Assembly: GCA_023078555.1 (NCBI GenBank)
Contig: CM041199.1
Span: forward strand, 8,871,315-8,935,314
From: Ulva prolifera
Taxonomy: Eukaryota; Chlorophyta; Ulvophyceae; Ulvales; Ulvaceae
DNA length: 64,000 nt
Direction: 5' to 3'
Part shown: positions 1 to 64,000 of the stretch, piece by piece
Position numbering within the stretch: the stretch's first letter is position 1
Layout of the letters: the number at the start of each line of letters is the position of its first letter
Notes under the pieces: model-generated
What the model saw: only the letters and a program-made list of their open reading frames with translations
The model's database searches: none
Told to the model about the DNA's origin: nothing
Made by a program: the position numbers and the translations under genes

Positions 1-172
1 GTCTAGGCAACTCCCAAGCATAATTGCATAGATACCAGGTGGCTTAAGCGACGCCCAAGCCTGTCTAGTCAACTCCCAAGCATGTTAGCGTAGAAACCAG
101 GTGGCTTAAGCAACTCCCAAGCCGGTCTAGTCAACTCCCAAGCACGTTTGCGTAGAAACCAGGTGGCTTAAG

Positions 173-193
173 CAACTCCCAAGCCTGTCTAGG
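173..193 (+). repeat. Exemplar short unit (S, 21 bp)
   Basis: This is a clean example of the 21-bp building block: the core caactcccaagc plus the tail ctgtctagg. The core is nearly invariant. The tail defines subtypes seen across the window: ctgtctagt, ctgtctacg, ctgtctcgg, ctgtatagg, ctgtccagg, ccgtctagg, cggtctagt, ccgactagt, atgtctagt, atgtctact and atggctagt. One subtype has core and tail altered to give gtctgtcaagg. A fixed order of subtypes is what defines each HOR. The length of 21 is divisible by three, which is why short frames appear open through runs of S units. Confidence 0.95.
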
Positions 194-234
194 CAACTCC
201 CAAGCATAATTGCATAGATACCAGGTGGCTTAAG
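194..234 (+). repeat. Exemplar long unit (L, 41 bp), AT-rich subtype
   Basis: The core caactcccaagc is followed by a 29-bp tail that begins ataattgcatag and ends ccaggtggcttaag. Main L subtypes are: this AT-rich one; atgtttgcgtag with ends ccaggtggcttaag or cctggtcgcttaag; the same start with end caaagtcgttttag; atgttagcgtag; acgtttgcgtag; atgtttgcatag with ccaagtggcttaag; atatttgcgtag with ggctttag; and atgttttcgtag with ccaagtcgttcaag. Bases 1-21 of the L unit match an S unit of the atgtctagt type at about 17 of 21 positions. The last 20 bases match S only weakly. The palindrome cttaag closes most L units. Confidence 0.95.
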
Positions 235-783
235 CAACTCCCAAGCCTGTCTACGCAACTCCCAAGCATGTCTAGTCAACTCCCAAGCATGTTTGCGTAG
301 AAAGCTGGTCGCTTAAGCAACTCCCAAGCCCGTCTAGGCAACTCCCAAGCATAATTGCATAGACACCATGTGGCTTAAGCAACTCCCAAGCCTGTCTACG
401 CAACTCCCAAGCATGTCTAGTCTACTCCCAAGCATGTTTGCGCAGAAACCAGGTGGGTTAAGCAACTCCCAAGTCTGTCAAGGCAACTCCCAAGCCCGAC
501 TAGTCAACTCCCAAGCATGTTTTCGTAGAAACCAAGTCGTTCAAGCAACTCCCAAGCCTGTATAGGCAACTCCCAAGCATGTTTGCATAGATACCAAGTG
601 GCTTAAGCAACTCCCAAGCCTGTCTCGGCAACTCCCAATCATGTTTGCATAGATACCAAGTGGCTTAAGCAACTCCCAAGCCTGTCTCGGCTACTCCCAA
701 GCATGTTTGCATAGATACCATGTGGCTTAAGCAACTCCCAAGCCTGTCTACGCAACTCCCAAGCATGTCTAGTCAACTCCTCA

Positions 784-1516
784 GCATGTTTGCGTAGAAA
801 CAAAGTCGTTTTAGCAACTCCCAAGCCTGTCTAGGCAACTCCCAAGCATAATTGCATAGATACCAGGTGGCTTAAGCAACTCCCAAGCCTGTCTACGCAA
901 CTCCCAAGCATGTCTAGTCAACTCCCAAGCATGTTTGCGTAGAAAGCTGGTCGCTTAAGCAACTCCCAAGCCCGTCTAGGCAACTCCCAAGCATAATTGC
1001 ATAGATACCATGTGGCTTAAGCAACTCCCAAGCCTGTCTACGCAACTCCCAAGCATGTCTAGTCTACTCCCAAGCATGTTTGCGCAGAAACCAGGTGGGT
1101 TAAGCAACTCCCAAGCCTGTCTAGGCAACTCCCAAGCATAATTGCATAGATACCATGTGGCTTAAGCAACTCCCAAGCATGTCTAGTCAAGTCCCAAGCA
1201 TGTTTGCGTAGAAACCAGGTGGCTTAAGCAACTCCCAAGCCCGTCTAGGCAACTCCCAAGCATGTTTGCGTAGAAACCTGGTCGCTTAAGCAACTCCCAA
1301 GCCTGTCTAGGCAACTCCCAAGCATAATTGCATAGATACCAGGTGGCTTAAGCAACTCCCAAGCCTGTCTAGGCAACTCCCAAGCATAATTGCATAGATA
1401 CCAGGTGGCTTAAGCAACTCCCAAGCCTGTCTACGCAACTCCCAAGCATGTCTAGTCAACTCCTCAGCATGTTTGCGTAGAAACAAAGTCGTTTTAGCAA
1501 CTCCCAAGCATGTCTA
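784..1516. repeat. Segment shared with 35,673-36,405
   Basis: About 733 bp match the right half of the window at a constant offset of 34,889, including the ordered markers aaagctggtcgc, gcgcagaaacc with gtgggttaag, and catgtctagtcaagtccc. Closely related copies recur at about 41,140-41,870, 45,510-46,240, 50,210-50,940 and 55,490-56,210. Immediate neighbours on the left (1-750) belong to a different HOR type, so this is a mosaic junction. It shows that sequence types of the left and right parts of the window have mixed. I saw no mismatch in the parts compared. Confidence 0.8.
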
Positions 1517-4384
1517 GTCAACTCCCAAGCATAATTGCATAGATACCATGTGGCTTAAGCAACTCCCAAGCATGTCTAGTCAAGTCCCAAGCATGTTTGC
1601 GTAGAAACCAGGTGGCTTCAGCAACTCCCAAGCCTGTCTAGGCAACTCCCAAGCATAATTGCATAGATACCAGGTGGCTTAAGCAACGCCCAAGCCTGTC
1701 TAGTCAACTCCCAAGCATGTTTGCGTAGAAACCAGGTGGCTTAAGCAACTCCCAAGCCCGTCTAGGCAACTCCCAAGCATGTTTGCGTAGAAACCTGGTC
1801 GCTTAAGCAACTTTCAAGCCTGTCTAGGCAACTCCCAAGCATGTCTACTCAACTCCCAAGCATAATTGCATAGATACCAGGTGGCTTAAGCAACTCCCAA
1901 GCCTGTCTAGTCAAGTCCCAAGCATGTTTGCGTAGAAACCAGGTGGCTTAAGCAACTCCCAAGCCTGTCTAGGCAACTCCCAAGCATAATTGCATAGATA
2001 CCAGGTGGCTTAAGCAACTCCCAAGCCTGTCTAGTCAACTCCCAAGCATGTTTGCGTAGAAACCAGGTGGCTTAAGCAACTCCCAAGCCCGTCTAGGCAA
2101 CTCCCAAGCATGTTTGCGTAGAAACCTGGTCGCTTAAGCAACTCCCAAGCCTGTCTAGGCAACTCCCAAGCCTGTCTAGTCAACTCCCAAGCATGTTTGC
2201 GTAGAAACCAGGTGGCTTAAGCAACTCCCAAGCCCGTCTAGGCAACTCCCAAGCATGTTTGCGTAGAAACCTGGTCGCTTAAGCAACTCCCAAGCCTGTC
2301 TAGGCAACTCCCAAGCATGTCTACTCAACTCCCAAGCATGTTTGCGTAGAATCAAAGTCGTTTTAGCAACTCCCAAGCATGTCTAGTCAACTCCCAAGCA
2401 TAATTGCATAGATACCAGGTGGCTGAAGCAACTCCCAAGCCTGTCTAGGCAACTCCCAAGCATAATTGCATAGATACCAGGTGGCTTAAGCAACTCCCAA
2501 GCCTGTCTACGCAACTCCCCAGCATGTCTAGTCAACTCCTCAGCATGTTTGCGTAGAAACAAAGTCGTTTTAGCAACTCCCAAGCATGTCTAGTCAACTC
2601 CCAAGCATAATTGCATAGATACCAGGTGGCTGAAGCAACTCCCAAGCCTGTCTAGGCAACTCCCAAGCATGTCTAGTCAACTCCCAAGCATGTTAGCGTA
2701 GAAACCAGGTGGCTTAAGCAACTCCCAAGCCGGTCTAGTGAACTCCCAAGCACGTTTGCGTAGAAACCAGGTGGCTTAAGCAACTCCCAAGCCCGTCTAG
2801 GCAACTCCCAAGCATAATTGCATAGATACCATGTGGCTTAAGCAACTCCCAAGCCTGTCCAGACAACTCCCAAGCATGTCTACTCAACTCCATAGCATGT
2901 TTGCGTAGAAACAAAGTCGTTTTAGCAACTCCCAAGCATGTCTAGTCAACTCCCAAGCATAATTGCATAGATACCATGTGGCTTAAGCAACTCCCAAGCC
3001 TGTCTAGGCAACTCCCAAGCATGTTTGCGTAGAAACCTGGTCGCTTAAGCAACTCCCAAGGCTGTCTAGGCAACTCCCAAGCATGTCTAGTCTACTCGCA
3101 AGCATGTTTGCGTAGAAACCTGGTCGCTTAAGCAACTCCCAAGCCGGTCTAGGCAACTCCCAAACCTGTCTAGTCAACTCCCAAGCATGTTTGCGTAGAA
3201 ACCTGGTGGCTTAAGCAACTCCCAAGCCTGTCTAGTCAACTCCCAAGCATGTTTGCGTAGAAACCAGGTGGCTTAAGCCACTCCCAAGCCCGTCTAGGCA
3301 ACTCCCAAGCATGTTTGCGTAGAAACCTGGTCGCTTAAGCAACTCCCAAGCCTGTCTAGGCAACTCCCAAGCCTGTCTAGTCAACTCCCAAGCATGTTTG
3401 CGTAGAAACCTGGTGGCTTAAGCAACTCCCAAGCCCGTCTAGGCAACTCCCAAGCATGTTTGCGTAGAAACCTGGTCGCTTAAGCAACTCCCAAGCCTGT
3501 CTAGGCAACTCCCAAGCCTGTCTAGTCAACTCCCAAGCATGTTTGCGTAGAAACCTGGTGGCTTAAGCAACTCCCAAGCCCGTCTAGGCAACTCCCAAGC
3601 ATGTTTGCGTAGAAACCTGGTCGCTTAAGCAACTCCCAAGCCTGTCTAGGCAACTCCCAAGCATAATTGCATAGATACCAGGTGGCTTAAGCAACTCCCA
3701 AGCCTGTCTAGGCAACTCCCAAGCATAATTGCATAGATACCATGTGGCTTAAGCAACTCCCAAGCCTGTCTACGCAACTCCCAAGCATGTCTAGTCAACT
3801 CCTCAGCATGTTTGCGTAGAAACAAAGTCGTTTTAGCAACTCCCAAGCATGTATATTCAACTCCCAAGCTTAATTGCATAGATACCATGTGGCTTAAGCA
3901 ACTCCCAAGCATGTCTAGTCAAGTCCCAAGCATGTTTGCGTAGAAACCAGGTGGCTTAAGCAACTCCCAAGCCTGTCTAGGCAACTCCCAAGCATAATTG
4001 CATAGATACCAGGTGGCTTAAGCAACTCCCAAGCCTGTCTAGTCAACTCCCAAGCATGTTAGCGTAGAAACCAGGTGGCTTAAGCAACTCCCAAGCCGGT
4101 CTAGTCAACTCCCAAGCACGTTTGCGTAGAAACCAGGTGGCTTAAGCAACTCCCAAGCCTGTCTAGGCAACTCCCGAGCATAATTGCATAGATACCAGGT
4201 GGCTTAAGCAACTCCCAAGCCTGTCTACGCAACTCCCAAGCATGTCTAGTCAACTCCCAAGCATGTTTGCGTAGAAAGCTGGTCGCTTAAGCAACTCCCA
4301 AGCCCGTCTAGGCAACTCCCAAGCATAATTGCATAGACACCATGTGGCTTAAGCAACTCCCAAGCCTGTCTACGCAACTCCCAA
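1307..4384. repeat. HOR copy related to 5,013-8,090 (offset 3,706)
   Basis: Anchors at 1,307, 2,176, 2,383, 2,735 and 3,646 recur exactly 3,706 bp downstream. Differences include ctgtctacg versus ctggctacg (near 1,430 and 5,135), aatcaaag versus aaacaaag (near 2,350), ctccatagc versus ctcccaagc (near 2,890), ttaagccact versus ttaagcaact (near 3,275) and ccatgtgg versus ccaggtgg (near 3,742). These make it a diverged sister of the copy at 5.0-8.1 kb, not a recent duplicate. After 4,384 the offset changes to 3,768, so this copy lacks one 62-bp S-L pair that is present near 8,090-8,152. Confidence 0.85.
3222..3656. repeat. Three consecutive 145-bp modules
   Basis: Successive modules start near 3,222, 3,367 and 3,512. 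Each runs from a ctgtctagt short unit through a gtttgcgtag long unit, a ccgtctagg short unit, another gtttgcgtag long unit ending cctggtcgcttaag, and a ctgtctagg short unit. The first module has ccaggtggc where the next two have cctggtggc. Equivalent runs lie at about 6,928-7,362, 12,436-12,870, 16,660-16,950, 20,117-20,407, 23,575-23,865, 27,260-27,550 and 31,697-31,986. This is the clearest case of a pure mid-level module in tandem. Confidence 0.82.
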
Positions 4385-7300
4385 GTCTGTCAAGGCAACT
4401 CCCAAGCCCGACTAGTCAACTCCCAAGCATGTTTTCGTAGAAACCAAGTCGTTCAAGCAACTCCCAAGCCTGTATAGGCAACTCCCAAGCATGTTTGCAT
4501 AGATACCAAGTGGCTTAAGCAACTCCCAAGCCTGTCTCGGCAACTCCCAATCATGTTTGCATAGATACCAAGTGGCTTAAGCAACTCCCAAGCCTGTCTC
4601 GGCTACTCCCAAGCATGTTTGCATAGATACCATGTGGCTTAAGCAACTCCCAAGCCTGTCTAGGCAACACCCAAGCATGGCTAGTCTACTCCAAAGCATG
4701 TTTGCGCAGAAACCAGGTGGGTTAAGCAACTCCCAAGTCTGTCAAGGCAACTCCCAAGCCCGACTAGTCAACTCCCAAGCATGTTTTTTGTAGAAACCAA
4801 GTCGTTCAAGCAACTCCCAAGCCTGTATAGGCAACTCCCAAGCATGTTTGCATAGATACCAGGTGGCTTAAGCAACTCCCAAGCCTGTCTCGGCAACTCC
4901 TAAGCATATTTGCGTAGAAACCTGGTGGCTTTAGCAACTCCCAAGCCCGTCTAGGCAACTCCCAAGCATGTTTGCGTAGAAACCTGGTCGCTTAAGCAAC
5001 TCCCAAGCCTGTCTAGGCAACTCCCAAGCATAATTGCATAGATACCAGGTGGCTTAAGCAACTCCCAAGCCTGTCTAGGCAACTCCCAAGCATAATTGCA
5101 TAGATACCAGGTGGCTTAAGCAACTCCCAAGCCTGGCTACGCAACTCCCAAGCATGTCTAGTCAACTCCTCAGCATGTTTGCGTAGAAACAAAGTCGTTT
5201 TAGCAACTCCCAAGCATGTCTAGTCAACTCCCAAGCATAATTGCATAGATACCATGTGGCTTAAGCAACTCCCAAGCATGTCTAGTCAAGTCCCAAGCAT
5301 GTTTGCGTAGAAACCAGGTGGCTTCAGCAACTCCCAAGCCTGTCTAGGCAACTCCCAAGCATAATTGCATAGATACCAGGTGGCTTAAGCAACGCCCAAG
5401 CCTGTCTAGTCAACTCCCAAGCATGTTTGCGTAGAAACCAGGTGGCTTAAGCAACTCCCAAGCCCGTCTAGGCAACTCCCAAGCATGTTTGCGTAGAAAC
5501 CTGGTCGCTTAAGCAACTTTCAAGCCTGTCTAGGCAACTCCCAAGCATGTCTACTCAACTCCCAAGCATAATTGCATAGATACCAGGTGGCTTAAGCAAC
5601 TCCCAAGCCTGTCTAGTCAAGTCCCAAGCATGTTTGCGTAGAAACCAGGTGGCTTAAGCAACTCCCAAGCCTGTCTAGGCAACTCCCAAGCATAATTGCA
5701 TAGATACCAGGTGGCTTAAGCAACTCCCAAGCCTGTCTAGTCAACTCCCAAGCATGTTTGCGTAGAAACCAGGTGGCTTAAGCAACTCCCAAGCCCGTCT
5801 AGGCAACTCCCAAGCATGTTTGCGTAGAAACCTGGTCGCTTAAGCAACTCCCAAGCCTGTCTAGGCAACTCCCAAGCCTGTCTAGTCAACTCCCAAGCAT
5901 GTTTGCGTAGAAACCAGGTGGCTTAAGCAACTCCCAAGCCCGTCTAGGCAACTCCCAAGCATGTTTGCGTAGAAACCTGGTCGCTTAAGCAACTCCCAAG
6001 CCTGTCTAGGCAACTCCCAAGCATGTCTACTCAACTCCCAAGCATGTTTGCGTAGAAACAAAGTCGTTTTAGCAACTCCCAAGCATGTCTAGTCAACTCC
6101 CAAGCATAATTGCATAGATACCAGGTGGCTGAAGCAACTCCCAAGCCTGTCTAGGCAACTCCCAAGCATAATTGCATAGATACCAGGTGGCTTAAGCAAC
6201 TCCCAAGCCTGTCTACGCAACTCCCCAGCATGTCTAGTCAACTCCTCAGCATGTTTGCGTAGAAACAAAGTCGTTTTAGCAACTCCCAAGCATGTCTAGT
6301 CAACTCCCAAGCATAATTGCATAGATACCAGGTGGCTGAAGCAACTCCCAAGCCTGTCTAGGCAACTCCCAAGCATGTCTAGTCAACTCCCAAGCATGTT
6401 AGCGTAGAAACCAGGTGGCTTAAGCAACTCCCAAGCCGGTCTAGTGAACTCCCAAGCACGTTTGCGTAGAAACCAGGTGGCTTAAGCAACTCCCAAGCCC
6501 GTCTAGGCAACTCCCAAGCATAATTGCATAGATACCATGTGGCTTAAGCAACTCCCAAGCCTGTCCAGACAACTCCCAAGCATGTCTACTCAACTCCCAA
6601 GCATGTTTGCGTAGAAACAAAGTCGTTTTAGCAACTCCCAAGCATGTCTAGTCAACTCCCAAGCATAATTGCATAGATACCATGTGGCTTAAGCAACTCC
6701 CAAGCCTGTCTAGGCAACTCCCAAGCATGTTTGCGTAGAAACCTGGTCGCTTAAGCAACTCCCAAGGCTGTCTAGGCAACTCCCAAGCATGTCTAGTCTA
6801 CTCGCAAGCATGTTTGCGTAGAAACCTGGTCGCTTAAGCAACTCCCAAGCCGGTCTAGGCAACTCCCAAACCTGTCTAGTCAACTCCCAAGCATGTTTGC
6901 GTAGAAACCTGGTGGCTTAAGCAACTCCCAAGCCTGTCTAGTCAACTCCCAAGCATGTTTGCGTAGAAACCAGGTGGCTTAAGCAACTCCCAAGCCCGTC
7001 TAGGCAACTCCCAAGCATGTTTGCGTAGAAACCTGGTCGCTTAAGCAACTCCCAAGCCTGTCTAGGCAACTCCCAAGCCTGTCTAGTCAACTCCCAAGCA
7101 TGTTTGCGTAGAAACCTGGTGGCTTAAGCAACTCCCAAGCCCGTCTAGGCAACTCCCAAGCATGTTTGCGTAGAAACCTGGTCGCTTAAGCAACTCCCAA
7201 GCCTGTCTAGGCAACTCCCAAGCCTGTCTAGTCAACTCCCAAGCATGTTTGCGTAGAAACCTGGTGGCTTAAGCAACTCCCAAGCCCGTCTAGGCAACTC

Positions 7301-9555
7301 CCAAGCATGTTTGCGTAGAAACCTGGTCGCTTAAGCAACTCCCAAGCCTGTCTAGGCAACTCCCAAGCATAATTGCATAGATACCAGGTGGCTTAAGCAA
7401 CTCCCAAGCCTGTCTAGGCAACTCCCAAGCATAATTGCATAGATACCAGGTGGCTTAAGCAACTCCCAAGCCTGTCTACGCAACTCCCAAGCATGTCTAG
7501 TCAACTCCTCAGCATGTTTGCGTAGAAACAAAGTCGTTTTAGCAACTCCCAAGCATGTATATTCAACTCCCAAGCTTAATTGCATAGATACCATGTGGCT
7601 TAAGCAACTCCCAAGCATGTCTAGTCAAGTCCCAAGCATGTTTGCGTAGAAACCAGGTGGCTTAAGCAACTCCCAAGCCTGTCTAGGCAACTCCCAAGCA
7701 TAATTGCATAGATACCAGGTGGCTTAAGCAACGCCCAAGCCTGTCTAGTCAACTCCCAAGCATGTTAGCGTAGAAACCAGGTGGCTTAAGCAACTCCCAA
7801 GCCGGTCTAGTCAACTCCCAAGCACGTTTGCGTAGAAACCAGGTGGCTTAAGCAACTCCCAAGCCTGTCTAGGCAACTCCCAAGCATAATTGCATAGATA
7901 CCAGGTGGCTTAAGCAACTCCCAAGCCTGTCTACGCAACTCCCAAGCATGTCTAGTCAACTCCCAAGCATGTTTGCGTAGAAAGCTGGTCGCTTAAGCAA
8001 CTCCCAAGCCCGTCTAGGCAACTCCCAAGCATAATTGCATAGACACCATGTGGCTTAAGCAACTCCCAAGCCTGTCTACGCAACTCCCAAGCATGTCTAG
8101 TCTACTCCCAAGCATGTTTGCGCAGAAACCAGGTGGGTTAAGCAACTCCCAAGTCTGTCAAGGCAACTCCCAAGCCCGACTAGTCAACTCCCAAGCATGT
8201 TTTCGTAGAAACCAAGTCGTTCAAGCAACTCCCAAGCCTGTATAGGCAACTCCCAAGCATGTTTGCATAGATACCAAGTGGCTTAAGCAACTCCCAAGCC
8301 TGTCTCGGCAACTCCCAATCATGTTTGCAAAGATACCAAGTGGCTTAAGCAACTCCCAAGCCTGTCTCGGCTACTCCCAAGCATGTTTGCATAGATACCA
8401 TGTGGCTTAAGCAACTCCCAAGCCTGTCTAGGCAACACCCAAGCATGGCTAGTCTACTCCAAAGCATGTTTGCGCAGAAACCAGGTGGGTTAAGCAACTC
8501 CCAAGTCTGTCAAGGCAACTCCCAAGCCCGACTAGTCAACTCCCAAGCATGTTTTTTGTAGAAACCAAGTCGTTCAAGCAACTCCCAAGCCTGTATAGGC
8601 AACTCCCAAGCATGTTTGCATAGATACCAGGTGGCTTAAGCAACTCCCAAGCCTGTCTCGGCAACTCCTAAGCATATTTGCGTAGACACCTGGTGGCTTT
8701 AGCAACTCCCAAGCCCGTCTAGGCAACTCCCAAGCATGTTTGCGTAGAAACCTGGTCGCTTAAGCAACTCCCAAGCCTGTCTAGGCAACTCCCAAGCCTG
8801 TCTAGGCAACTCCCAAGCATGTTTGCATAGATACCAGGTGGCTTAAGCAACTCCCAAGCCTGTCTCGGCAACTCCTAAGCATATTTGCGTAGAAACCTGG
8901 TGGCTTTAGCAACTCCCAAGCCCGTCTAGGCAACTCCCAAGCATGTTTGCGTAGAAACCTGGTCGCTTAAGCAACTCCAAAGCCTGTCTAGGCAACTCCC
9001 AAGCCTGTCTAGGCAACTCCCAAGCATAATTGCATAGATACCAGGTGGCTTAAGCAACGCCCAAGCCTGTCTAGTCAACTCCCAAGCATGTTTGCGTAGA
9101 AACCAGGTGGCTTGAGCAACTCCCAAGCCCGTCTAGGCAACTCCCAAGCATGTTTGCGTAGAAACCTGGTCGCTTAAGCAACTTTCAAGCCTGTCTAGGC
9201 AACTCCCAAGCATGACTACTCAACTCCCAAGCATAATTGCATAGATACCAGGTGGCTTAAGCAACTCCCAAGCCTGTCTAGTCAAGTCCCAAGCATGTTT
9301 GCGTAGAAACCAGGTGGCTTAAGCAACTCCCAAGCCTGTCTAGGCAACTCCCAAGCATAATTGCATAGATACCAGGTGGCTTAAGCAACTCCCAAGCCTG
9401 TCTAGTCAACTCCCAAGCATGTTTGCGTAGAAACCAGGTGGCTTAAGCAACTCCCAAGCCCGTCTAGGCAACTCCCATGCATGCTTGCGTAGAAACCTGG
9501 TCGCTTAAGCAACTCCCAAGCCTGTCTAGGCAACTCCCAAGCCTTTCTAGTCAAC
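4048..9555. repeat. 5,508-bp HOR, first copy of a tandem pair
   Basis: Every anchor from about 4,048 (for example 5,013, 5,882, 6,089, 6,441, 7,352, 8,048 and 8,926) recurs 5,508 bp later. Rare variants also recur in register: ctcccgagc near 4,173, ctggctacg near 5,135, gcaaagat near 8,327, tagacacc near 8,685, catgactact near 9,210, catgcatgcttgcg near 9,478 and the junction variant cctttctag near 9,542. I saw no difference between the two copies at the sites compared. Internally the copy contains its own older subrepeats, including the 3,706-bp relatives. Confidence 0.88.
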
Positions 9556-12500
9556 TCCCAAGCATGTTAGCGTAGAAACCAGGTGGCTTAAGCAACTCCC
9601 AAGCCGGTCTAGTCAACTCCCAAGCACGTTTGCGTAGAAACCAGGTGGCTTAAGCAACTCCCAAGCCTGTCTAGGCAACTCCCGAGCATAATTGCATAGA
9701 TACCAGGTGGCTTAAGCAACTCCCAAGCCTGTCTACGCAACTCCCAAGCATGTCTAGTCAACTCCCAAGCATGTTTGCGTAGAAAGCTGGTCGCTTAAGC
9801 AACTCCCAAGCCCGTCTAGGCAACTCCCAAGCATAATTGCATAGACACCATGTGGCTTAAGCAACTCCCAAGCCTGTCTACGCAACTCCCAAGTCTGTCA
9901 AGGCAACTCCCAAGCCCGACTAGTCAACTCCCAAGCATGTTTTCGTAGAAACCAAGTCGTTCAAGCAACTCCCAAGCCTGTATAGGCAACTCCCAAGCAT
10001 GTTTGCATAGATACCAAGTGGCTTAAGCAACTCCCAAGCCTGTCTCGGCAACTCCCAATCATGTTTGCATAGATACCAAGTGGCTTAAGCAACTCCCAAG
10101 CCTGTCTCGGCTACTCCCAAGCATGTTTGCATAGATACCATGTGGCTTAAGCAACTCCCAAGCCTGTCTAGGCAACACCCAAGCATGGCTAGTCTACTCC
10201 AAAGCATGTTTGCGCAGAAACCAGGTGGGTTAAGCAACTCCCAAGTCTGTCAAGGCAACTCCCAAGCCCGACTAGTCAACTCCCAAGCATGTTTTTTGTA
10301 GAAACCAAGTCGTTCAAGCAACTCCCAAGCCTGTATAGGCAACTCCCAAGCATGTTTGCATAGATACCAGGTGGCTTAAGCAACTCCCAAGCCTGTCTCG
10401 GCAACTCCTAAGCATATTTGCGTAGAAACCTGGTGGCTTTAGCAACTCCCAAGCCCGTCTAGGCAACTCCCAAGCATGTTTGCGTAGAAACCTGGTCGCT
10501 TAAGCAACTCCCAAGCCTGTCTAGGCAACTCCCAAGCATAATTGCATAGATACCAGGTGGCTTAAGCAACTCCCAAGCCTGTCTAGGCAACTCCCAAGCA
10601 TAATTGCATAGATACCAGGTGGCTTAAGCAACTCCCAAGCCTGGCTACGCAACTCCCAAGCATGTCTAGTCAACTCCTCAGCATGTTTGCGTAGAAACAA
10701 AGTCGTTTTAGCAACTCCCAAGCATGTCTAGTCAACTCCCAAGCATAATTGCATAGATACCATGTGGCTTAAGCAACTCCCAAGCATGTCTAGTCAAGTC
10801 CCAAGCATGTTTGCGTAGAAACCAGGTGGCTTCAGCAACTCCCAAGCCTGTCTAGGCAACTCCCAAGCATAATTGCATAGATACCAGGTGGCTTAAGCAA
10901 CGCCCAAGCCTGTCTAGTCAACTCCCAAGCATGTTTGCGTAGAAACCAGGTGGCTTAAGCAACTCCCAAGCCCGTCTAGGCAACTCCCAAGCATGTTTGC
11001 GTAGAAACCTGGTCGCTTAAGCAACTTTCAAGCCTGTCTAGGCAACTCCCAAGCATGTCTACTCAACTCCCAAGCATAATTGCATAGATACCAGGTGGCT
11101 TAAGCAACTCCCAAGCCTGTCTAGTCAAGTCCCAAGCATGTTTGCGTAGAAACCAGGTGGCTTAAGCAACTCCCAAGCCTGTCTAGGCAACTCCCAAGCA
11201 TAATTGCATAGATACCAGGTGGCTTAAGCAACTCCCAAGCCTGTCTAGTCAACTCCCAAGCATGTTTGCGTAGAAACCAGGTGGCTTAAGCAACTCCCAA
11301 GCCCGTCTAGGCAACTCCCAAGCATGTTTGCGTAGAAACCTGGTCGCTTAAGCAACTCCCAAGCCTGTCTAGGCAACTCCCAAGCCTGTCTAGTCAACTC
11401 CCAAGCATGTTTGCGTAGAAACCAGGTGGCTTAAGCAACTCCCAAGCCCGTCTAGGCAACTCCCAAGCATGTTTGCGTAGAAACCTGGTCGCTTAAGCAA
11501 CTCCCAAGCCTGTCTAGGCAACTCCCAAGCATGTCTACTCAACTCCCAAGCATGTTTGCGTAGAAACAAAGTCGTTTTAGCAACTCCCAAGCATGTCTAG
11601 TCAACTCCCAAGCATAATTGCATAGATACCAGGTGGCTGAAGCAACTCCCAAGCCTGTCTAGGCAACTCCCAAGCATAATTGCATAGATACCAGGTGGCT
11701 TAAGCAACTCCCAAGCCTGTCTACGCAACTCCCCAGCATGTCTAGTCAACTCCTCAGCATGTTTGCGTAGAAACAAAGTCGTTTTAGCAACTCCCAAGCA
11801 TGTCTAGTCAACTCCCAAGCATAATTGCATAGATACCAGGTGGCTGAAGCAACTCCCAAGCCTGTCTAGGCAACTCCCAAGCATGTCTAGTCAACTCCCA
11901 AGCATGTTAGCGTAGAAACCAGGTGGCTTAAGCAACTCCCAAGCCGGTCTAGTGAACTCCCAAGCACGTTTGCGTAGAAACCAGGTGGCTTAAGCAACTC
12001 CCAAGCCCGTCTAGGCAACTCCCAAGCATAATTGCATAGATACCATGTGGCTTAAGCAACTCCCAAGCCTGTCCAGACAACTCCCAAGCATGTCTACTCA
12101 ACTCCCAAGCATGTTTGCGTAGAAACAAAGTCGTTTTAGCAACTCCCAAGCATGTCTAGTCAACTCCCAAGCATAATTGCATAGATACCATGTGGCTTAA
12201 GCAACTCCCAAGCCTGTCTAGGCAACTCCCAAGCATGTTTGCGTAGAAACCTGGTCGCTTAAGCAACTCCCAAGGCTGTCTAGGCAACTCCCAAGCATGT
12301 CTAGTCTACTCGCAAGCATGTTTGCGTAGAAACCTGGTCGCTTAAGCAACTCCCAAGCCGGTCTAGGCAACTCCCAAACCTGTCTAGTCAACTCCCAAGC
12401 ATGTTTGCGTAGAAACCTGGTGGCTTAAGCAACTCCCAAGCCTGTCTAGTCAACTCCCAAGCATGTTTGCGTAGAAACCAGGTGGCTTAAGCAACTCCCA

Positions 12501-35999: not shown

Positions 36000-36000
36000 C

Positions 36001-37572: not shown

Positions 37573-37589
37573 CAAGCCTGTCTAGGCAA

Positions 37590-40820: not shown

Positions 40821-40821
40821 C

Positions 40822-45208: not shown

Positions 45209-48200
45209 TACCATGTGGCTGAGGCAACTCCCAAGCCTGTCCAGGCAACTCCCAAGCATGTCTACTCAACTCCCAAGCATGTTTGCGTAGAAACCTGGTC
45301 GCTTAAGCAACTCCCAAGCCTGTCTAGGCAACTCCCAAGCCTGTCTAGTCAACTCCCAAGCATGTTTGCGTAGAAACCAGGTGGCTTAAGCAACTCCCAA
45401 GCCCGTCTAGGCAACTCCCAAGCATGTTTGCGTAGAAACCTGGTCGCTTAAGCAACTCCCAAGCCTGTCTAGGCAACTCCCAAGCATGTCTACTCAACTC
45501 CCAAGCATGTTTGCGTAGAAACAAAGTCGTTTTAGCAACTCCCAAGCCTGTCTAGGCAACTCCCAAGCATAATTGCATAGATACCAGGTGGCTTAAGCAA
45601 CTCCCAAGCCTGTCTACGCAACTCCCAAGCATGTCTAGTCAACTCCCAAGCATGTTTGCGTAGAAAGCTGGTCGCTTAAGCAACTCCCAAGCCCGTCTAG
45701 GCAACTCCCAAGCATAATTGCATAGATACCATGTGGCTTAAGCAACTCCCAAGCCTGTCTACGCAACTCCCAAGCATGTCTAGTCTACTCCCAAGCATGT
45801 TTGCGAAGAAACCAGGTGGGTTAAGCAACTCCCAAGCCTGTCTAGGCAACTCCCAAGCATAATTGCATAGATACCATGTGGCTTAAGCAACTCCCAAGCA
45901 TGTCTAGTCAAGTCCCAAGCATGTTTGCGTAGAAACCAGGTGGCTTAAGCAACTCCCAAGCCCGTCTAGGCAACTCCCAAGCATGTTTGCGTAGAAACCT
46001 GGTCGCTTAAGCAACTCCCAAGCCTGTCTAGGCAACTCCCAAGCATAATTGCATAGATACCAGGTGGCTTAAGCAACTCCCAAGCCTGTCTAGGCAACTC
46101 CCAAGCATAATTGCATAGATACCAGGTGGCTTAAGCAACTCCCAAGCCTGTCTACGCAACTCCCAAGCATGTCTAGTCAACTCCTCAGCATGTTTGCGTA
46201 GAAACAAAGTCGTTTTAGCAACTCCCAAGCATGTCTATTCAACTCCCAAGCATAATTGCATAGATACCATGTGGCTTAAGCAACTCCAAAGCATGTCTAG
46301 TCAAGTCCCAAGCATGTTTGCGTAGAAACCAGGTGGCTTCAGCAACTCCCAAGCCTGTCTAGGCAACTCCCAAGCATAATTGCATAGATACCAGGTGGCT
46401 TAAGCAACGCCCAAGCCTGTCTAGTCAACTCCCAAGCATGTTAGCGTAGAAACCAGGTGGCTTAAGCAACTCCCAAGCCGGTCTAGTCAACTCCCAAGCA
46501 CGTTTGCGTAGAAACCAGGTGGCTTAAGCAACTCCCAAGCCTGTCTACGCAACTCCCAAGCATGTCTAGTCAACTCCCAAGCATGTTTGCGTAGAAAGCT
46601 GGTCGCTTAAGCAACTCCCAAGCCCGTCTAGGCAACTCCCAAGCATAATTGCATAGACACCATGTGGCTTAAGCAACTCCCAAGCCTGTCTACGCAACTC
46701 CCAAGCATGTCTAGTCTACTCCCAAGCATGTTTGCGCTGAAACCAGGTGGGTTAAGCAACTCCCAAGTCTGTCAAGGCAACTCCCAAGCCCGACTAGTCA
46801 ACTCCCAAGCATGTTTTCGTAGAAACCAAGTCGTTCAAGCAACTCCCAAGCCTGTATAGGCAACTCCCAAGCATGTTTGCATAGATACCATGTGGCTTAA
46901 GCAACTCCCAAGCCTGTCTCGGTAACTCCCAATCATGTTTGCATAGATACCAAGTGGCTTAAGCAACTCCCAAGCCTGTCTCGGCTACTCCCAAGCATGT
47001 TTGCATAGATACCATGTGGCTTAAGCAACTCCCAAGCCTGTCTAGGCAACAACCAAGCATGGCTAGTCTACTCCAAAGCATGTTTGCGCAGAAACCAGGT
47101 GGGTTAAGCAACTCCCAAGTCTGTCAAGGCAACTCCCAAGCCCGACTAGTCAACTCCCAAGCATGTTTTTGTAGAAACCAAGTCGTTCAAGCAACTCCCA
47201 AGCCTGTATAGGCAACTCCCAAGCATGTTTGCATAGATACCAGGTGGCTTAAGCAACTCCCAAGCCGGTCTAGTCAACTCCCAAGCACGTTTGCGTAGAA
47301 ACCAGGTGGCTTAAGCAACTCCCAAGCCTGTCTAGGCAACTCCCAAGCATAATTGCATAGATACCAGGTGGCTTAAGCAACTCCCAAGCCTGTCTACGCA
47401 ACTCCCAAGCATGTTTGCGTAGAAACCAGGTGGCTTAAGCAACTCCCAAGCCCGTCTAGGCAACTCCCAAGCATGTTTGCGTAGAAACCTGGTCGCTTAA
47501 GCAACTCCCAAGCCTGTCTAGGCAACTCCCAAGCATAATTGCATAGATACCATGTGGCTTAAGCAACTCCCAAGCATGTCTAGTCAAGTCCCAAGCATGT
47601 TTGCGTAGAAACCAGGTGGCTTCAGCAACTCCCAAGCCTGTCTAGGCAACTCCCAAGCATAATTGCATAGATACCAGGTGGCTTAAGCAACGCCCAAGCC
47701 TGTCTAGTCAACTCCCAAGCATGTTTGCGTAGAAACCAGGTGGCTTAAGCAACTCCCAAGCCCGTCTAGGAAACTCCCAAGCATGTTTGCGTAGAAACCT
47801 GGTCGCTTAAGCAACTTTCAAGCCTGTCTAGGCAACTCCCAAGCATGTCTACTCAACTCCCAAGCATAATTGCATAGATACCAGGTGGCTTAAGCAACTC
47901 CCAAGCCTGTCTAGTCAAGTCCCAAGCATGTTTGCGTAGAAACCAGGTGGCTTAAGCAACTCCCAAGCCTGTCTAGGCAACTCCCAAGCATAATTGCATA
48001 GATACCAGGTGGCTTAAGCAACTCCCAAGCCTGTCTAGTTAACTCCCAAGCATGTTTGCGTAGAAACCAGGTGGCTTAAGCAACTCCCAAGCCCGTCTAG
48101 GCAACTCCCAAGCATGTTTGCGTAGAAACCTGGTCGCTTAAGCAACTCCCAAGCCTGTCTAGGCAACTCCCAAGCCTGTATAGTCAACTCCCAAGCATGT

Positions 48201-49245
48201 TTGCGTAGAAACCAGGTGGCTTAAGCAACTCCCAAGCCCGTCTAGGCAACTCCCAAGCATGTTTGCGTAGAAACCTGGTCGCTTAAGCAACTCCCAAGCC
48301 TGTCTAGGCAACTCCCAAGCATGTCTACTCAACTCCCAAGCATGTTTGCGTAGAAACAAAGTCGTTTTAGCAACTCCCAAGCATGTCTAGTCAACTCCCA
48401 AGCATAATTGCATAGATACCAGGTGGCTGAAGCAACTCCCAAGCCTGTCTAGGCAACTCCCAAGCATAATTGCATAGATACCAGGTGGCTTAAGCAACTC
48501 CCAAGCCTGTCTACGCAGCTCCCCAGCATGTCTAGTCAACTCCTCAGCATGTTTGCGTAGAAACAAAGTCGTTTTAGCAACTCCCAAGCATGTCTAGTCA
48601 AGTCCCAAGCATGTTTGCGTAGAAACCAGGTGGCTTAAGCAACTCCCAAGCCCGTCTAGGCAACTCCCAAGCATGTTTGCGTAGAAACCTGGTCGCTTAA
48701 GCAACTCCCAAGCCTGTCTAGGCAACTCCCAAGCATAATTGCATAGATACCAGGTGGCTTAAGCAACTCCCAAGCCTGTCTAGGCAACTCCCAAGCATAA
48801 TTGCATATATACCAGGTGGCTTAAGCAACTCCCAAGCCTGTCTACGCAACTCCCAAGCATGTTTGCGTAGAAACCAGGTGGCTTAAGCAACTCCCAAGCC
48901 CGTCTAGGCAACTCCCAAGCATGTTTGCGTAGAAACCTGGTCGCTTAAGCAACTCCCAAGCCTGTCTAGGCAACTCCCAAGCCTGTCTAGTCAACTCCCA
49001 AGCATGTTTGCGTAGAAACCAGGTGGCTTAAGCAACTCCCAAGCCCGTCTAGGCAACTCCCAAGCATGTTTGCGTAGAAACCTGGTCGCTTAAGCAACTC
49101 CCAAGCCTGTCTAGGCAACTCCCAAGCATGTCTACTCAACTCCCAAGCATGTTTGCGTAGAAACAAAGTCGTTTTAGCAACTCCCAAGCATGTCTAGTCA
49201 ACTCCCAAGCATAATTGCATAGATACCAGGTGGCTGAAGCAACTC
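44548..49245. repeat. 4,698-bp HOR, first copy of a tandem pair
   Basis: Anchors at 44,910, 45,345, 46,028, 46,662, 47,014, 48,159, 48,387 and 48,987 all recur at +4,698. Rare variants in register include gcgaagaaacc near 45,804, caacaacc near 47,048, taggaaactccc near 47,768, ctagttaac near 48,037, ctgtatagtc near 48,177, gcagctcccc near 48,515 and gcatatatacc near 48,804. I saw no difference from the second copy at the sites compared. The left limit is near 44,548, where tcgcttaag in this copy faces ggctgaag in the next. Confidence 0.87.
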
Positions 49246-52200
49246 CCAAGCCTGTCTAGGCAACTCCCAAGCATGTCTACTCAACTCCCAAGCATGTTTG
49301 CGTAGAAACAAAGTCGTTTTAGCAACTCCCAAGCATGTCTAGTCAACTCCCAAGCATAATTGCATAGATACCAGGTGGCTGAAGCAACTCCCAAGCCTGT
49401 CTAGGCAACTCCCAAGCATAATTGCATAGATACCAGGTGGCTTAAGCAACTCCCAAGCCTGTCTACGCAACTCCCAAGCATGTTTGCGTAGAAACCAGGT
49501 GGCTTAAGCAACTCCCAAGCCCGTCTAGGCAACTCCCAAGCATGTTTGCGTAGAAACCTGGTCGCTTAAGCAACTCCCAAGCCTGTCTAGGCAACTCCCA
49601 AGCCTGTCTAGTCAACTCCCAAGCATGTTTGCGTAGAAACCAGGTGGCTTAAGCAACTCCCAAGCCCGTCTAGGCAACTCCCAAGCATGTTTGCGTAGAA
49701 ACCTGGTCGCTTAAGCAACTCCCAAGCCTGTCTAGGCAACTCCCAAGCATGTCTACTCAACTCCCAAGCATGTTTGCGTAGAAACAAAGTCGTTTTAGCA
49801 ACTCCCAAGCATGTCTAGTCAACTCCCAAGCATAATTGCATAGATACCAGGTGGCTGAAGCAACTCCCAAGCCTGTCTAGGCAACTCCCAAGCATAATTG
49901 CATAGATACCATGTGGCTGAGGCAACTCCCAAGCCTGTCCAGGCAACTCCCAAGCATGTCTACTCAACTCCCAAGCATGTTTGCGTAGAAACCTGGTCGC
50001 TTAAGCAACTCCCAAGCCTGTCTAGGCAACTCCCAAGCCTGTCTAGTCAACTCCCAAGCATGTTTGCGTAGAAACCAGGTGGCTTAAGCAACTCCCAAGC
50101 CCGTCTAGGCAACTCCCAAGCATGTTTGCGTAGAAACCTGGTCGCTTAAGCAACTCCCAAGCCTGTCTAGGCAACTCCCAAGCATGTCTACTCAACTCCC
50201 AAGCATGTTTGCGTAGAAACAAAGTCGTTTTAGCAACTCCCAAGCCTGTCTAGGCAACTCCCAAGCATAATTGCATAGATACCAGGTGGCTTAAGCAACT
50301 CCCAAGCCTGTCTACGCAACTCCCAAGCATGTCTAGTCAACTCCCAAGCATGTTTGCGTAGAAAGCTGGTCGCTTAAGCAACTCCCAAGCCCGTCTAGGC
50401 AACTCCCAAGCATAATTGCATAGATACCATGTGGCTTAAGCAACTCCCAAGCCTGTCTACGCAACTCCCAAGCATGTCTAGTCTACTCCCAAGCATGTTT
50501 GCGAAGAAACCAGGTGGGTTAAGCAACTCCCAAGCCTGTCTAGGCAACTCCCAAGCATAATTGCATAGATACCATGTGGCTTAAGCAACTCCCAAGCATG
50601 TCTAGTCAAGTCCCAAGCATGTTTGCGTAGAAACCAGGTGGCTTAAGCAACTCCCAAGCCCGTCTAGGCAACTCCCAAGCATGTTTGCGTAGAAACCTGG
50701 TCGCTTAAGCAACTCCCAAGCCTGTCTAGGCAACTCCCAAGCATAATTGCATAGATACCAGGTGGCTTAAGCAACTCCCAAGCCTGTCTAGGCAACTCCC
50801 AAGCATAATTGCATAGATACCAGGTGGCTTAAGCAACTCCCAAGCCTGTCTACGCAACTCCCAAGCATGTCTAGTCAACTCCTCAGCATGTTTGCGTAGA
50901 AACAAAGTCGTTTTAGCAACTCCCAAGCATGTCTATTCAACTCCCAAGCATAATTGCATAGATACCATGTGGCTTAAGCAACTCCAAAGCATGTCTAGTC
51001 AAGTCCCAAGCATGTTTGCGTAGAAACCAGGTGGCTTCAGCAACTCCCAAGCCTGTCTAGGCAACTCCCAAGCATAATTGCATAGATACCAGGTGGCTTA
51101 AGCAACGCCCAAGCCTGTCTAGTCAACTCCCAAGCATGTTAGCGTAGAAACCAGGTGGCTTAAGCAACTCCCAAGCCGGTCTAGTCAACTCCCAAGCACG
51201 TTTGCGTAGAAACCAGGTGGCTTAAGCAACTCCCAAGCCTGTCTACGCAACTCCCAAGCATGTCTAGTCAACTCCCAAGCATGTTTGCGTAGAAAGCTGG
51301 TCGCTTAAGCAACTCCCAAGCCCGTCTAGGCAACTCCCAAGCATAATTGCATAGACACCATGTGGCTTAAGCAACTCCCAAGCCTGTCTACGCAACTCCC
51401 AAGCATGTCTAGTCTACTCCCAAGCATGTTTGCGCTGAAACCAGGTGGGTTAAGCAACTCCCAAGTCTGTCAAGGCAACTCCCAAGCCCGACTAGTCAAC
51501 TCCCAAGCATGTTTTCGTAGAAACCAAGTCGTTCAAGCAACTCCCAAGCCTGTATAGGCAACTCCCAAGCATGTTTGCATAGATACCATGTGGCTTAAGC
51601 AACTCCCAAGCCTGTCTCGGTAACTCCCAATCATGTTTGCATAGATACCAAGTGGCTTAAGCAACTCCCAAGCCTGTCTCGGCTACTCCCAAGCATGTTT
51701 GCATAGATACCATGTGGCTTAAGCAACTCCCAAGCCTGTCTAGGCAACAACCAAGCATGGCTAGTCTACTCCAAAGCATGTTTGCGCAGAAACCAGGTGG
51801 GTTAAGCAACTCCCAAGTCTGTCAAGGCAACTCCCAAGCCCGACTAGTCAACTCCCAAGCATGTTTTTGTAGAAACCAAGTCGTTCAAGCAACTCCCAAG
51901 CCTGTATAGGCAACTCCCAAGCATGTTTGCATAGATACCAGGTGGCTTAAGCAACTCCCAAGCCGGTCTAGTCAACTCCCAAGCACGTTTGCGTAGAAAC
52001 CAGGTGGCTTAAGCAACTCCCAAGCCTGTCTAGGCAACTCCCAAGCATAATTGCATAGATACCAGGTGGCTTAAGCAACTCCCAAGCCTGTCTACGCAAC
52101 TCCCAAGCATGTTTGCGTAGAAACCAGGTGGCTTAAGCAACTCCCAAGCCCGTCTAGGCAACTCCCAAGCATGTTTGCGTAGAAACCTGGTCGCTTAAGC

Positions 52201-55330: not shown

Positions 55331-56003
55331 CCCAAGCATGTTTGCGTAGAAACCAGGTGGCTTAAGCAACTCCCAAGCCCGTCTAGGCAACTCCCAAGCA
55401 TGTTTGCGTAGAAACCTGGTCGCTTAAGCAACTCCCAAGCCTGTCTAGGCAACTCCCAAGCATGTCTACTCAACTCCCAAGCATGTTTGCGTAGAAACAA
55501 AGTCGTTTTAGCAACTCCCAAGCCTGTCTAGGCAACTCCCAAGCATAATTGCATAGATACCAGGTGGCTTAAGCAACTCCCAAGCCTGTCTACGCAACTC
55601 CCAAGCATGTCTAGTCAACTCCCAAGCATGTTTGCGTAGAAAGCTGGTCGCTTAAGCAACTCCCAAGCCCGTCTAGGCAACTCCCAAGCATAATTGCATA
55701 GATACCATGTGGCTTAAGCAACTCCCAAGCCTGTCTACGCAACTCCCAAGCATGTCTAGTCTACTCCCAAGCATGTTTGCGCAGAAACCAGGTGGGTTAA
55801 GCAACTCCCAAGCCTGTCTAGGCAACTCCCAAGCATAATTGCATAGATACCATGTGGCTTAAGCAACTCCCAAGCATGTCTAGTCAAGTCCCAAGCATGT
55901 TTGCGTAGAAACCAGGTGGCTTAAGCAACTCCCAAGCCCGTCTAGGCAACTCCCAAGCATGTTTGCGTAGAAACCTGGTCGCTTAAGCAACTCCCAAGCC
56001 TGT

Positions 56004-56790: not shown

Positions 56791-57261
56791 TAGGCAACTC
56801 CCAAGCATAATTGCATATATACCAGGTGGCTTAAGCAACTCCCAAGCCTGTCTACGCAACTCCCAAGCATGTTTGCGTAGAAACCAGGTGGCTTAAGCAA
56901 CTCCCAAGCCCGTCTAGGCAACTCCCAAGCATGTTTGCGTAGAAACCTGGTCGCTTAAGCAACTCCCAAGCCTGTCTAGGCAACTCCCAAGCCTGTCTAG
57001 TCAACTCCCAAGCATGTTTGCGTAGAAACCAGGTGGCTTAAGCAACTCCCAAGCCCGTCTAGGCAACTCCCAAGCATGTTTGCGTAGAAACCTGGTCGCT
57101 TAAGCAACTCCCAAGCCTGTCTAGGCAACTCCCAAGCATGTCTACTCAACTCCCAAGCATGTTTGCGTAGAAACAAAGTCGTTTTAGCAACTCCCAAGCA
57201 TGTCTAGTCAACTCCCAAGCATAATTGCATAGATACCAGGTGGCTGAAGCAACTCCCAAGC

Positions 57262-60200: not shown

Positions 60201-61034
60201 GGCTGAGGCAACTCCCAAGCCTGTCCAGGCAACTCCCAAGCATGTCTACTCAACTCCCAAGCATGTTTGCGTAGAAACCTGGTCGCTTAAGCAACTCCCA
60301 AGCCTGTCTAGGCAACTCCCAAGCCTGTCTAGTCAACTCCCAAGCATGTTAGCGTAGAAACCAGGTGGCTTAAGCAACTCCCAAGCCCGTCTAGTGAACT
60401 CCCAAGCACGTTTGCGTAGAAACCATGTGGCTTAAGCAACTCCCAAGCCCGTCTAGGCAACTCCCAAGCATAATTGCATAGATACCATGTGGCTGAGGCA
60501 ACTCCCAAGCCTGTCCAGGCAACTCCCAAGCATGTCTACTCAACTCCCAAGCATGTTTGCGTAGAAACCTGGTCGCTTAAGCAACTCCCAAGCCTGTCTA
60601 GGCAACTCCCAAGCCTGTCTAGTCAACTCCCAAGCATGTTTGCGTAGAAACCAGGTGGCTTAAGCAACTCCCAAGCCCGTCTAGGCAACTCCCAAGCATG
60701 TTTGCGTAGAAACCTGGTCGCTTAAGCAACTCCCAAGCCTGTCTAGGCAACTCCCAAGCATGTCTACTCAACTCCCAAGCATGTTTGCGTAGAAACAAAG
60801 TCGTTTTAGCAACTCCCAAGCCTGTCTAGGCAACTCCCAAGCATAATTGCATAGATACCAGGTGGCTTAAGCAACTCCCAAGCCTGTCTACGCAACTCCC
60901 AAGCATGTCTAGTCAACTCCCAAGCATGTTTGCGTAGAAAGCTGGTCGCTTAAGCAACTCCCAAGCCCGTCTAGGCAACTCCCAAGCATAATTGCATAGA
61001 TACCATGTGGCTTAAGCAACTCCCAAGCCTGTCT
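57262..61034. repeat. Right-hand HOR, second copy (truncated)
   Basis: This copy follows the first at +5,360, then +5,298. It keeps caacgccc, taggaaactccc, aactttcaag, ctagttaac, ctgtatagtc, gcagctcccc and one gcatatatacc unit. It runs to about 61,034, where a unit after ccatgtggcttaag is followed directly by ctgtctagtc of the 57,760 type instead of the ctgtctacg found in other copies near 55,735. That is a deletion-type junction that removes the remaining part of the longer HOR. Confidence 0.8.
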
Positions 61035-61441
61035 AGTCAACTCCCAAGCATGTTTGCGTAGAAACCAGGTGGCTTAAGCAACTCCCAAGCCCGTCTAGGA
61101 AACTCCCAAGCATGTTTGCGTAGAAACCTGGTCGCTTAAGCAACTTTCAAGCCTGTCTAGGCAACTCCCAAGCATGTCTACTCAACTCCCAAGCATAATT
61201 GCATAGATACCAGGTGGCTTAAGCAACGCCCAAGCCTGTCTAGTCAACTCCCAAGCATGTTTGCGTAGAAACCAGGTGGCTTAAGCAACTCCCAAGCCCG
61301 TCTAGGAAACTCCCAAGCATGTTTGCGTAGAAACCTGGTCGCTTAAGCAACTTTCAAGCCTGTCTAGGCAACTCCCAAGCATGTCTACTCAACTCCCAAG
61401 CATAATTGCATAGATACCAGGTGGCTTAAGCAACTCCCAAG
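61028..61441. repeat. 207-bp tandem duplication
   Basis: Copies at about 61,028-61,234 and 61,235-61,441 each contain taggaaactccc and the rare aactttcaag (near 61,143 and 61,350), 207 bp apart (3 L + 4 S). The corresponding places near 47,815, 52,513 and 57,871 have only one copy. The first copy ends with caacgccc after the AT-rich long unit and the second with caactccc, which shows the exchange took place between neighbouring units of different type. Confidence 0.82.
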
Positions 61442-64000
61442 CCTGTCTAGTCAAGTCCCAAGCATGTTTGCGTAGAAACCAGGTGGCTTAAGCAACTCCC
61501 AAGCCTGTCTAGGCAACTCCCAAGCATAATTGCATAGATACCAGGTGGCTTAAGCAACTCCCAAGCCTGTCTAGTTAACTCCCAAGCATGTTTGCGTAGA
61601 AACCAGGTGGCTTAAGCAACTCCCAAGCCCGTCTAGGCAACTCCCAAGCATGTTTGCGTAGAAACCTGGTCGCTTAAGCAACTCCCAAGCCTGTCTAGGC
61701 AACTCCCAAGCCTGTATAGTCAACTCCCAAGCATGTTTGCGTAGAAACCAGGTGGCTTAAGCAACTCCCAAGCCCGTCTAGGCAACTCCCAAGCATGTTT
61801 GCGTAGAAACCTGGTCGCTTAAGCAACTCCCAAGCCTGTCTAGGCAACTCCCAAGCATGTCTACTCAACTCCCAAGCATGTTTGCGTAGAAACAAAGTCG
61901 TTTTAGCAACTCCCAAGCATGTCTAGTCAACTCCCAAGCATAATTGCATAGATACCAGGTGGCTGAAGCAACTCCCAAGCCTGTCTAGGCAACTCCCAAG
62001 CATAATTGCATAGATACCAGGTGGCTTAAGCAACTCCCAAGCCTGTCTACGCAGCTCCCCAGCATGTCTAGTCAACTCCTCAGCATGTTTGCGTAGAAAC
62101 AAAGTCGTTTTAGCAACTCCCAAGCATGTCTAGTCAAGTCCCAAGCATGTTTGCGTAGAAACCAGGTGGCTTAAGCAACTCCCAAGCCCGTCTAGGCAAC
62201 TCCCAAGCATGTTTGCGTAGAAACCTGGTCGCTTAAGCAACTCCCAAGCCTGTCTAGGCAACTCCCAAGCATAATTGCATATATACCAGGTGGCTTAAGC
62301 AACTCCCAAGCCTGTCTACGCAACTCCCAAGCATGTTTGCGTAGAAACCAGGTGGCTTAAGCAACTCCCAAGCCCGTCTAGGCAACTCCCAAGCATGTTT
62401 GCGTAGAAACCTGGTCGCTTAAGCAACTCCCAAGCCTGTCTAGGCAACTCCCAAGCCTGTCTAGTCAACTCCCAAGCATGTTTGCGTAGAAACCAGGTGG
62501 CTTAAGCAACTCCCAAGCCCGTCTAGGCAACTCCCAAGCATGTTTGCGTAGAAACCTGGTCGCTTAAGCAACTCCCAAGCCTGTCTAGGCAACTCCCAAG
62601 CATGTCTACTCAACTCCCAAGCATGTTTGCGTAGAAACAAAGTCGTTTTAGCAACTCCCAAGCATGTCTAGTCAACTCCCAAGCATAATTGCATAGATAC
62701 CAGGTGGCTGAAGCAACTCCCAAGCCTGTCTAGGCAACTCCCAAGCATAATTGCATAGATACCAGGTGGCTTAAGCAACTCCCAAGCCTGTCTACGCAGC
62801 TCCCCAGCATGTCTAGTCAACTCCTCAGCATGTTTGCGTAGAAACAAAGTCGTTTTAGCAACTCCCAAGCATGTCTAGTCAACTCCCAAGCATAATTGCA
62901 TAGATACCAGGTGGCTGAAGCAACTCCCAAGCCTGTCTAGGCAACTCCCAAGCCTGTCTAGTCAACTCCCAAGCATGTTAGCGTAGAAACCAGGTGGCTT
63001 AAGCAACTCCCAAGCCGGTCTAGTGAACTCCCAAGCACGTTTGCGTAGAAACCAGGTGGCTTAAGCAACTCCCAAGCCCGTCTAGGCAACTCCCAAGCAT
63101 AATTGCATAGATACCATGTGGCTGAGGCAACTCCCAAGCCTGTCCAGGCAACTCCCAAGCATGTCTACTCAACTCCCAAGCATGTTTGCGTAGAAACCTG
63201 GTCGCTTAAGCAACTCCCAAGCCTGTCTAGGCAACTCCCAAGCCTGTCTAGTCAACTCCCAAGCATGTTTGCGTAGAAACCAGGTGGCTTAAGCAACTCC
63301 CAAGCCCGTCTAGGCAACTCCCAAGCATGTTTGCGTAGAAACCTGGTCGCTTAAGCAACTCCCAAGCCTGTCTAGGCAACTCCCAAGCATAATTGCATAG
63401 ATACCAGGTGGCTTAAGCAACTCCCAAGCCTGTCTAGGCAACTCCCAAGCATAATTGCATAGATACCAGGTGGCTGAAGCAACTCCCAAGCCTGTCTAGG
63501 CAACTCCCAAGCCTGTCTAGTCAACTCCCAAGCATGTTAGCGTAGAAACCAGGTGGCTTAAGCAACTCCCAAGCCGGTCTAGTGAACTCCCAAGCACGTT
63601 TGCGTAGAAACCAGGTGGCTTAAGCAACTCCCAAGCCCGTCTAGGCAACTCCCAAGCATAATTGCATAGATACCATGTGGCTGAGGCAACTCCCAAGCCT
63701 GTCCAGGCAACTCCCAAGCATGTCTACTCAACTCCCAAGCATGTTTGCGTAGAAACCTGGTCGCTTAAGCAACTCCCAAGCCTGTCTAGGCAACTCCCAA
63801 GCCTGTCTAGTCAACTCCCAAGCATGTTAGCGTAGAAACCAGGTGGCTTAAGCAACTCCCAAGCCCGTCTAGTGAACTCCCAAGCACGTTTGCGTAGAAA
63901 CCATGTGGCTTAAGCAACTCCCAAGCCCGTCTAGGCAACTCCCAAGCATAATTGCATAGATACCATGTGGCTGAGGCAACTCCCAAGCCTGTCCAGGCAA
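61235..64000. repeat. Right-hand HOR, third copy, cut by the window end
   Basis: Anchors at 58,217, 58,445, 58,983, 59,190, 59,480, 60,039 and 60,329 recur at +3,478 (61,695, 61,923, 62,461, 62,668, 62,958, 63,517 and 63,807). The last bases lie in a ctgtccagg short unit and the following core. Rare variants ctagttaac near 61,573, ctgtatagtc near 61,713 and gcatatatacc near 62,277 all appear in order. I saw no mismatch with the second copy at the sites compared. Confidence 0.83.

Follow-up and report, generated by a model that had tools for sequence, protein, structure and literature searches.

A satellite array with a 62-bp composite monomer and an optional additional 21-bp unit

The window, by which we mean the whole 64,000-bp stretch of DNA that was analyzed, is built on a 62-bp composite monomer made of a 21-bp unit (S) and a 41-bp unit (L), to which an additional 21-bp S is optionally added. 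We consider it probable (at roughly 0.78) that the window represents the interior of a eukaryotic satellite DNA array with this composite monomer, and that the array has been shaped by unequal exchange.

The array and its two units

The array fills the window end to end, so that both window edges cut it, and several of its parts are listed here:

Positions 1 to 64000, + strand: satellite array in a single orientation, with core anchors from 8 to 63977 and even composition and GC skew
Positions 7 to 47, + strand: first 41-bp unit (L) in the window, defined by anchor spacing
Positions 48 to 68, + strand: example of the 21-bp unit (S), defined by anchor spacing
Positions 4768 to 4809, + strand: first of ten identical 42-bp units, defined by anchor spacing
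Positions 8536, 10276, 14044, 15908, 18124, 21581, 25039, 28725 and 32949: starts of the remaining nine 42-bp units
Positions 18477 to 18516, + strand: sole 40-bp unit, defined by anchor spacing

Units were delimited by a 12-base core, CAACTCCCAAGC, with up to 3 substitutions allowed, which yields 2161 anchors in the 64-kb window, the first at position 8 and the last at 63977. The exact core is present 1796 times on the + strand and 0 times on the - strand. The 2160 spacings between anchors are 21 bp (1230 times), 41 bp (919), 42 bp (10) and 40 bp (once). The original prediction of related 21- and 41-bp units in ordered series is thus borne out by 2149 of the 2160 spacings, leaving 11 exceptions. 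Composition is likewise even: across all 32 bins of 2 kb (32/32), GC content stays between 0.489 and 0.509 and GC skew between -0.193 and -0.220. Tandem Repeats Finder returned 444 overlapping rows, with periods of 62, 83, 124, 145, 186 and 207 among the matches listed. These are the properties of satellite DNA in the general sense, a short non-coding unit repeated in tandem, head to tail, over a long array. Nucleosome phasing was considered on account of the 145- and 207-bp shifts and was set aside, as both are merely sums of S and L.

The S unit is typically GCAACTCCCAAGCCTGTCTAG and occurs as 36 distinct sequences, while L typically takes the form GCAACTCCCAAGCATGTTTGCGTAGAAACCAGGTGGCTTAA or AATTGCATAGATACC, and the 919 41-bp copies comprise 63 distinct sequences. 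The heads of S and L are common over 13 bases, and over 16 bases when the CATG form of S is compared. By anchor spacing, the 64 kb departs from 21 and 41 bp in just two sequence types, the 42-bp and the 40-bp unit. The former is identical to a 41-bp unit (a form present 9 times) with one T added; most simply, this +1 T in ten units was a single event that spread through amplification. The identical 42-bp units are confined to the first 33 kb (4768-32990), where they mark a sub-lineage of higher-order copies.

A perfect palindrome, GCTTAAGC, lies at 688 of the 930 L-S junctions and is absent elsewhere in the window, making the junction a candidate landmark that recurs each 62 or 83 bp. Within positions 1-400 the inverted repeats consist of this L-S junction palindrome and its repeats, together with one other 12-nt pair.

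No coding capacity was found in the window, where the longest stop-free run is 90 codons. Rfam gave no match at gathering scores, the predicted RNA folds are unremarkable (z from -1.59 to 0.34 for six folds, three stretches on both strands), and there is no exact copy of a doubled telomere repeat in the window. CpG is depleted (an observed/expected ratio of 0.35, with 1.26 for TG and 1.22 for CA), and two of the commoner variants (S15 and L22) are CpG transitions; a CpG context is found in just 4 of the 19 transition classes. Substitutions usually favor transitions over transversions. Of the variant classes that occur five or more times, 39 are transversions and 19 transitions, an excess that may derive from a small number of founding units, as the copies are not independent. 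Variation driven by methylation was considered and is not claimed here, with only 4/19 transition classes in CpG and transversion classes outnumbering transition classes 39 to 19.

Order of units and long copies

When the units are written as letters, L never adjoins L. Among the 930 long units (the 42s and the 40 included) there are 0 LL adjacencies, whereas 1000 letter shuffles average 400 and never drop below 360, under a null that treats units as independent although copied segments share ancestry. The S runs of the resulting 929 blocks are single in 632 cases, double in 293 and triple in 4. Encoding this order as a 62-bp block with an optional extra S costs 870 bits, compared with 2130 bits for free letters. 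Blocks with more than one S are also spaced more evenly than in shuffled orders (51 adjacent pairs against 95 expected), again among copies that are not independent.

These results bear directly on the description of the array as a two-letter alphabet with which the original prediction began, which amounts to two independent monomers in a free mixture. Free mixing would give nearly all spacings in two lengths and a variable order, and both are seen; the two lengths stand. The order, however, is not free, given the absence of LL where approximately 400 cases would be expected and a description approximately 1260 bits dearer than that of the S-run grammar, and we regard free mixing as extremely improbable. 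The prediction had also named a parse in which a single monomer explains the array better as evidence against itself, and the grammar of a 62-bp block with an optional 21-bp unit goes part of the way to such a parse, by the same difference in bits.

A further claim, that the larger periods measured without a visible indel add up to whole numbers of the two units, is informative for short periods only. Beyond 799 bp it has no content, since any integer above that value can be written as 21a+41b. The largest integer that cannot is 799 itself, and even among smaller values a fit is common, at 27% for those under 400 and 72.5% for the range 400-799. If 62 and 21 are used as the parts, the sum test cannot fail above 1219 bp.

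The array is also highly repetitive at a larger scale. Its 929 blocks reduce to 109 distinct sequences, and only 3399 distinct 31-mers are found among 63,970. Two long tandem copies stand out:

Positions 4038 to 9683, + strand: long repeated segment of 5646 bp, with a tandem copy at a shift of 5508 and 99.89% identity
Positions 44539 to 49274, + strand: long repeated segment of 4736 bp, with a tandem copy at a shift of 4698 and 0 differences

In the first of these pairs the 6 differences all fall at 9569-9647, within the last 115 bp, leaving the initial 5531 bp without a difference. Identity across the 60 longest repeated segments ranges from 97.3 to 100%, and segments of at least 1 kb copied at 97% or more make up 89.6% of the window (47.0% for segments of at least 3 kb). 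The presence of 109 distinct sequences among 929 blocks, together with identical segments of up to approximately 5.5 kb, indicates that the copies are recent. As in a higher-order repeat, identity at the long shifts (99.89-100% at 5508 and 4698) far exceeds the 76.6% found at a shift of 62. This higher-order structure is irregular, with several different periods side by side.

Long identical copies could instead reflect an assembly artefact, such as a looped or over-expanded repeat. This would account for identity over whole periods, as in the 4736 bp at shift 4698 and the 5531 bp at shift 5508, and for the further tandem copies of 1.3-2.8 kb that are also 100% identical. Other pairs, however, differ at spread sites (8 differences in 3159 bp at shift 3706, and 2 in 3352 bp at shift 3458), the fine S/L structure is independent of the large copies, and recent amplification accounts for the identity equally well. 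We therefore consider an artefact unlikely, and recent amplification is the reading that we carry forward.

Proposed origin of the 83-bp block and absence of adjacent L units

Base 14 is diagnostic for S versus L, and its distribution suggests how the longer block may have arisen. This block, S1-S2-L, is exemplified by:

Positions 234 to 316, + strand: 83-bp block, defined by unit letter order, with S1 at 234-254, S2 (A at base 14) at 255-275 and L at 276-316

Nearly all L units have A at base 14 (927 of 930), with T in 3 and C in 0, while most S units have C there (947 of 1230). Double-S blocks carry C at this position in every first S (293/293), and their second S carries A in 182/293 and C in 111/293. 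When only distinct double-S blocks are counted, A14 is found in 27/49 second S units versus 0/49 first S units (Fisher p of about 1e-10, for copies that are not fully independent). The A14 double blocks are followed by a T-starting L in 181/182 cases. A single S carries A14 in 99 of 632 cases, and a T-starting L is next in 97 of those 99. The 4 triple blocks divide evenly at base 14 of their third S, two having A and two C. The reduced, single-S form is present in the window as S1+L for 9/49 distinct double-S blocks and as S2+L for 7/49.

From this pattern we infer both the route of exchange and the direction of change. The 83-bp form could have arisen from a 21-bp slip of the array inside the core shared by S and L, in which a crossover joining an L head to the tail of the S that follows it would produce an S with A14 and lengthen the block by 21 bp. 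Blocks of 62 and 83 bp would later have been mixed by recombination, and whole multi-kilobase segments copied, with the layered, near-identical higher-order copies as the outcome. The predominance of A14 single S units before a T-starting L fits the loss of S1 from A14 doubles. The case for S2 as a hybrid depends essentially on a single diagnostic base, and a simple C-to-A substitution in a duplicated S would leave the same picture. In addition, C14 is found in 111 of the 293 second S units, and the two S units are identical in 63/293 double blocks (the CCTG-type sequence both times), so at least one further route, or gene conversion, is required.

The same route would also explain why L never adjoins L. 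The founding exchange would also have yielded a reciprocal product, a C14 L adjoining another L, which is absent from the window and would not have been retained; no LL is then expected because this product was lost and because slips from 83 to 62 bp between S1 and S2 drop the spare S alone. The lack of LL calls for no selection, as one founding event, or a few, with subsequent copying would suffice. It is very unlikely, in our estimation, that a standing constraint keeps L flanked by S, with LL exchange products being removed rather than never founded. A candidate for such a constraint, to which we give equally little weight, would be a protein or DNA-bending phase that places cores at steps of approximately 2 or 4 turns and never permits two 4-turn steps consecutively; 21 bp corresponds to 2.0 helical turns, and 41, 62 and 83 bp each fall approximately 0.1 turn below a whole number.

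A deeper origin, in which an ancestral monomer of ~20.7 bp gave rise to S and to both halves of L as three diverged copies, with 62 bp being a trimer, is possible but doubtful. The arithmetic is suggestive (62/3 = 20.67), the first part of L resembles S, and the 41- and 60-bp satellites of caiman are reported, in the accessible text, to derive from ~20-bp subunits (PMC10900743). The global tests set the final 22 bases of L against S; one L form returned p values of 0.047 and 0.024 against two S forms, but two other L forms gave 0.28-0.69 in 4/4 tests. Local tests, which compare 25-base L tails with S against a null of dinucleotide shuffles, gave p values of 0.29, 0.63 and 0.71 for 3/3 L tails. 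Overall, the tail of L is S-like at p<0.05 in 2/9 tests. The composite of one S and one L remains the monomer that we adopt.

Relation to known satellites and significance

Human alpha satellite consists of 171-bp monomers in near-identical higher-order copies. In that arrangement it is similar to the window, a likeness of organization, and it differs in its monomer, 171 bp as opposed to the 62-bp unit here. The core of the CENP-B box has 0 exact copies and 0 at one substitution in the window, which sets the array apart from CENP-B satellites. Arrays of this type are usually expected to have a structural role in heterochromatin or at the centromere, and by analogy a structural role of heterochromatin or centromere type may be supposed for this one.

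With window positions 1-3700 as the query, no similar DNA was found among plasmids and phages, and there were 0 exact matches in viral contigs (one pattern) or prokaryote contigs (two patterns), all collections that are not meant for eukaryotic satellites. Fragments of the units led to no satellite paper by title in the full-text papers searched, a set that covers eukaryotic satellites poorly. A goat paper mentioning "62-bp" was discarded, as its available portion concerns a gene deletion. Repeat libraries may already contain this family.

The closest parallels are in archosaurs and are drawn from descriptions in partial texts. The caiman group 1/2 satellites comprise 41-bp units of 21+20-bp subrepeats and 60-bp units of 20-bp subunits, with the longer forms attributed to cycles of duplication and divergence (PMC10900743, available sections). 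They resemble the window in having related units of 20/21, 41 and 60 bp, as compared by description, but the caiman 41- and 60-bp units are described there as separate satellites, whereas the window alternates 21 and 41 bp in one array under a strict rule. By this analogy the 21/41-type architecture is itself not new, since a caiman parallel is in print (PMC10900743, as far as its accessible text goes). Chicken CNM, as described in the available part of PMC9974502, is a 41-bp repeat with higher-order repeats of 26-98 units, located at acrocentric centromeres. It shares with the window, again by description, a 41-bp unit and higher-order repeats; CNM arrays consist of the 41-bp repeat, however, whereas the 41-bp unit of the window always has 21-bp neighbours.

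Could the array then belong to an archosaur 41-bp group (chicken CNM, galliform PO41 and caiman group 1), L then being its 41-bp unit? Equal unit length (a likeness by description), the 21+20-bp subrepeats of caiman, and the multi-unit higher-order repeats of CNM (26 to 98 copies) would favor this, as far as the partial texts describe them. Against it, L never forms an array by itself, and a 41-bp unit in tandem with itself, which marks that group, is found at 0 junctions. The chicken sate-21 motif, the dyad of which is compared with CNM in the accessible text of PMC9974502, has 0 exact matches in the window and 1 per strand at up to 2 substitutions. Membership is accordingly most unlikely.

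The array is most likely a satellite of ordinary type, unusual in how legible its grammar is. By itself it yields no new mechanism or function. Its clean two-length structure and readable grammar make it well suited as a natural record of unequal exchange in short repeats, in which the products of gain and loss are told apart through one diagnostic base.
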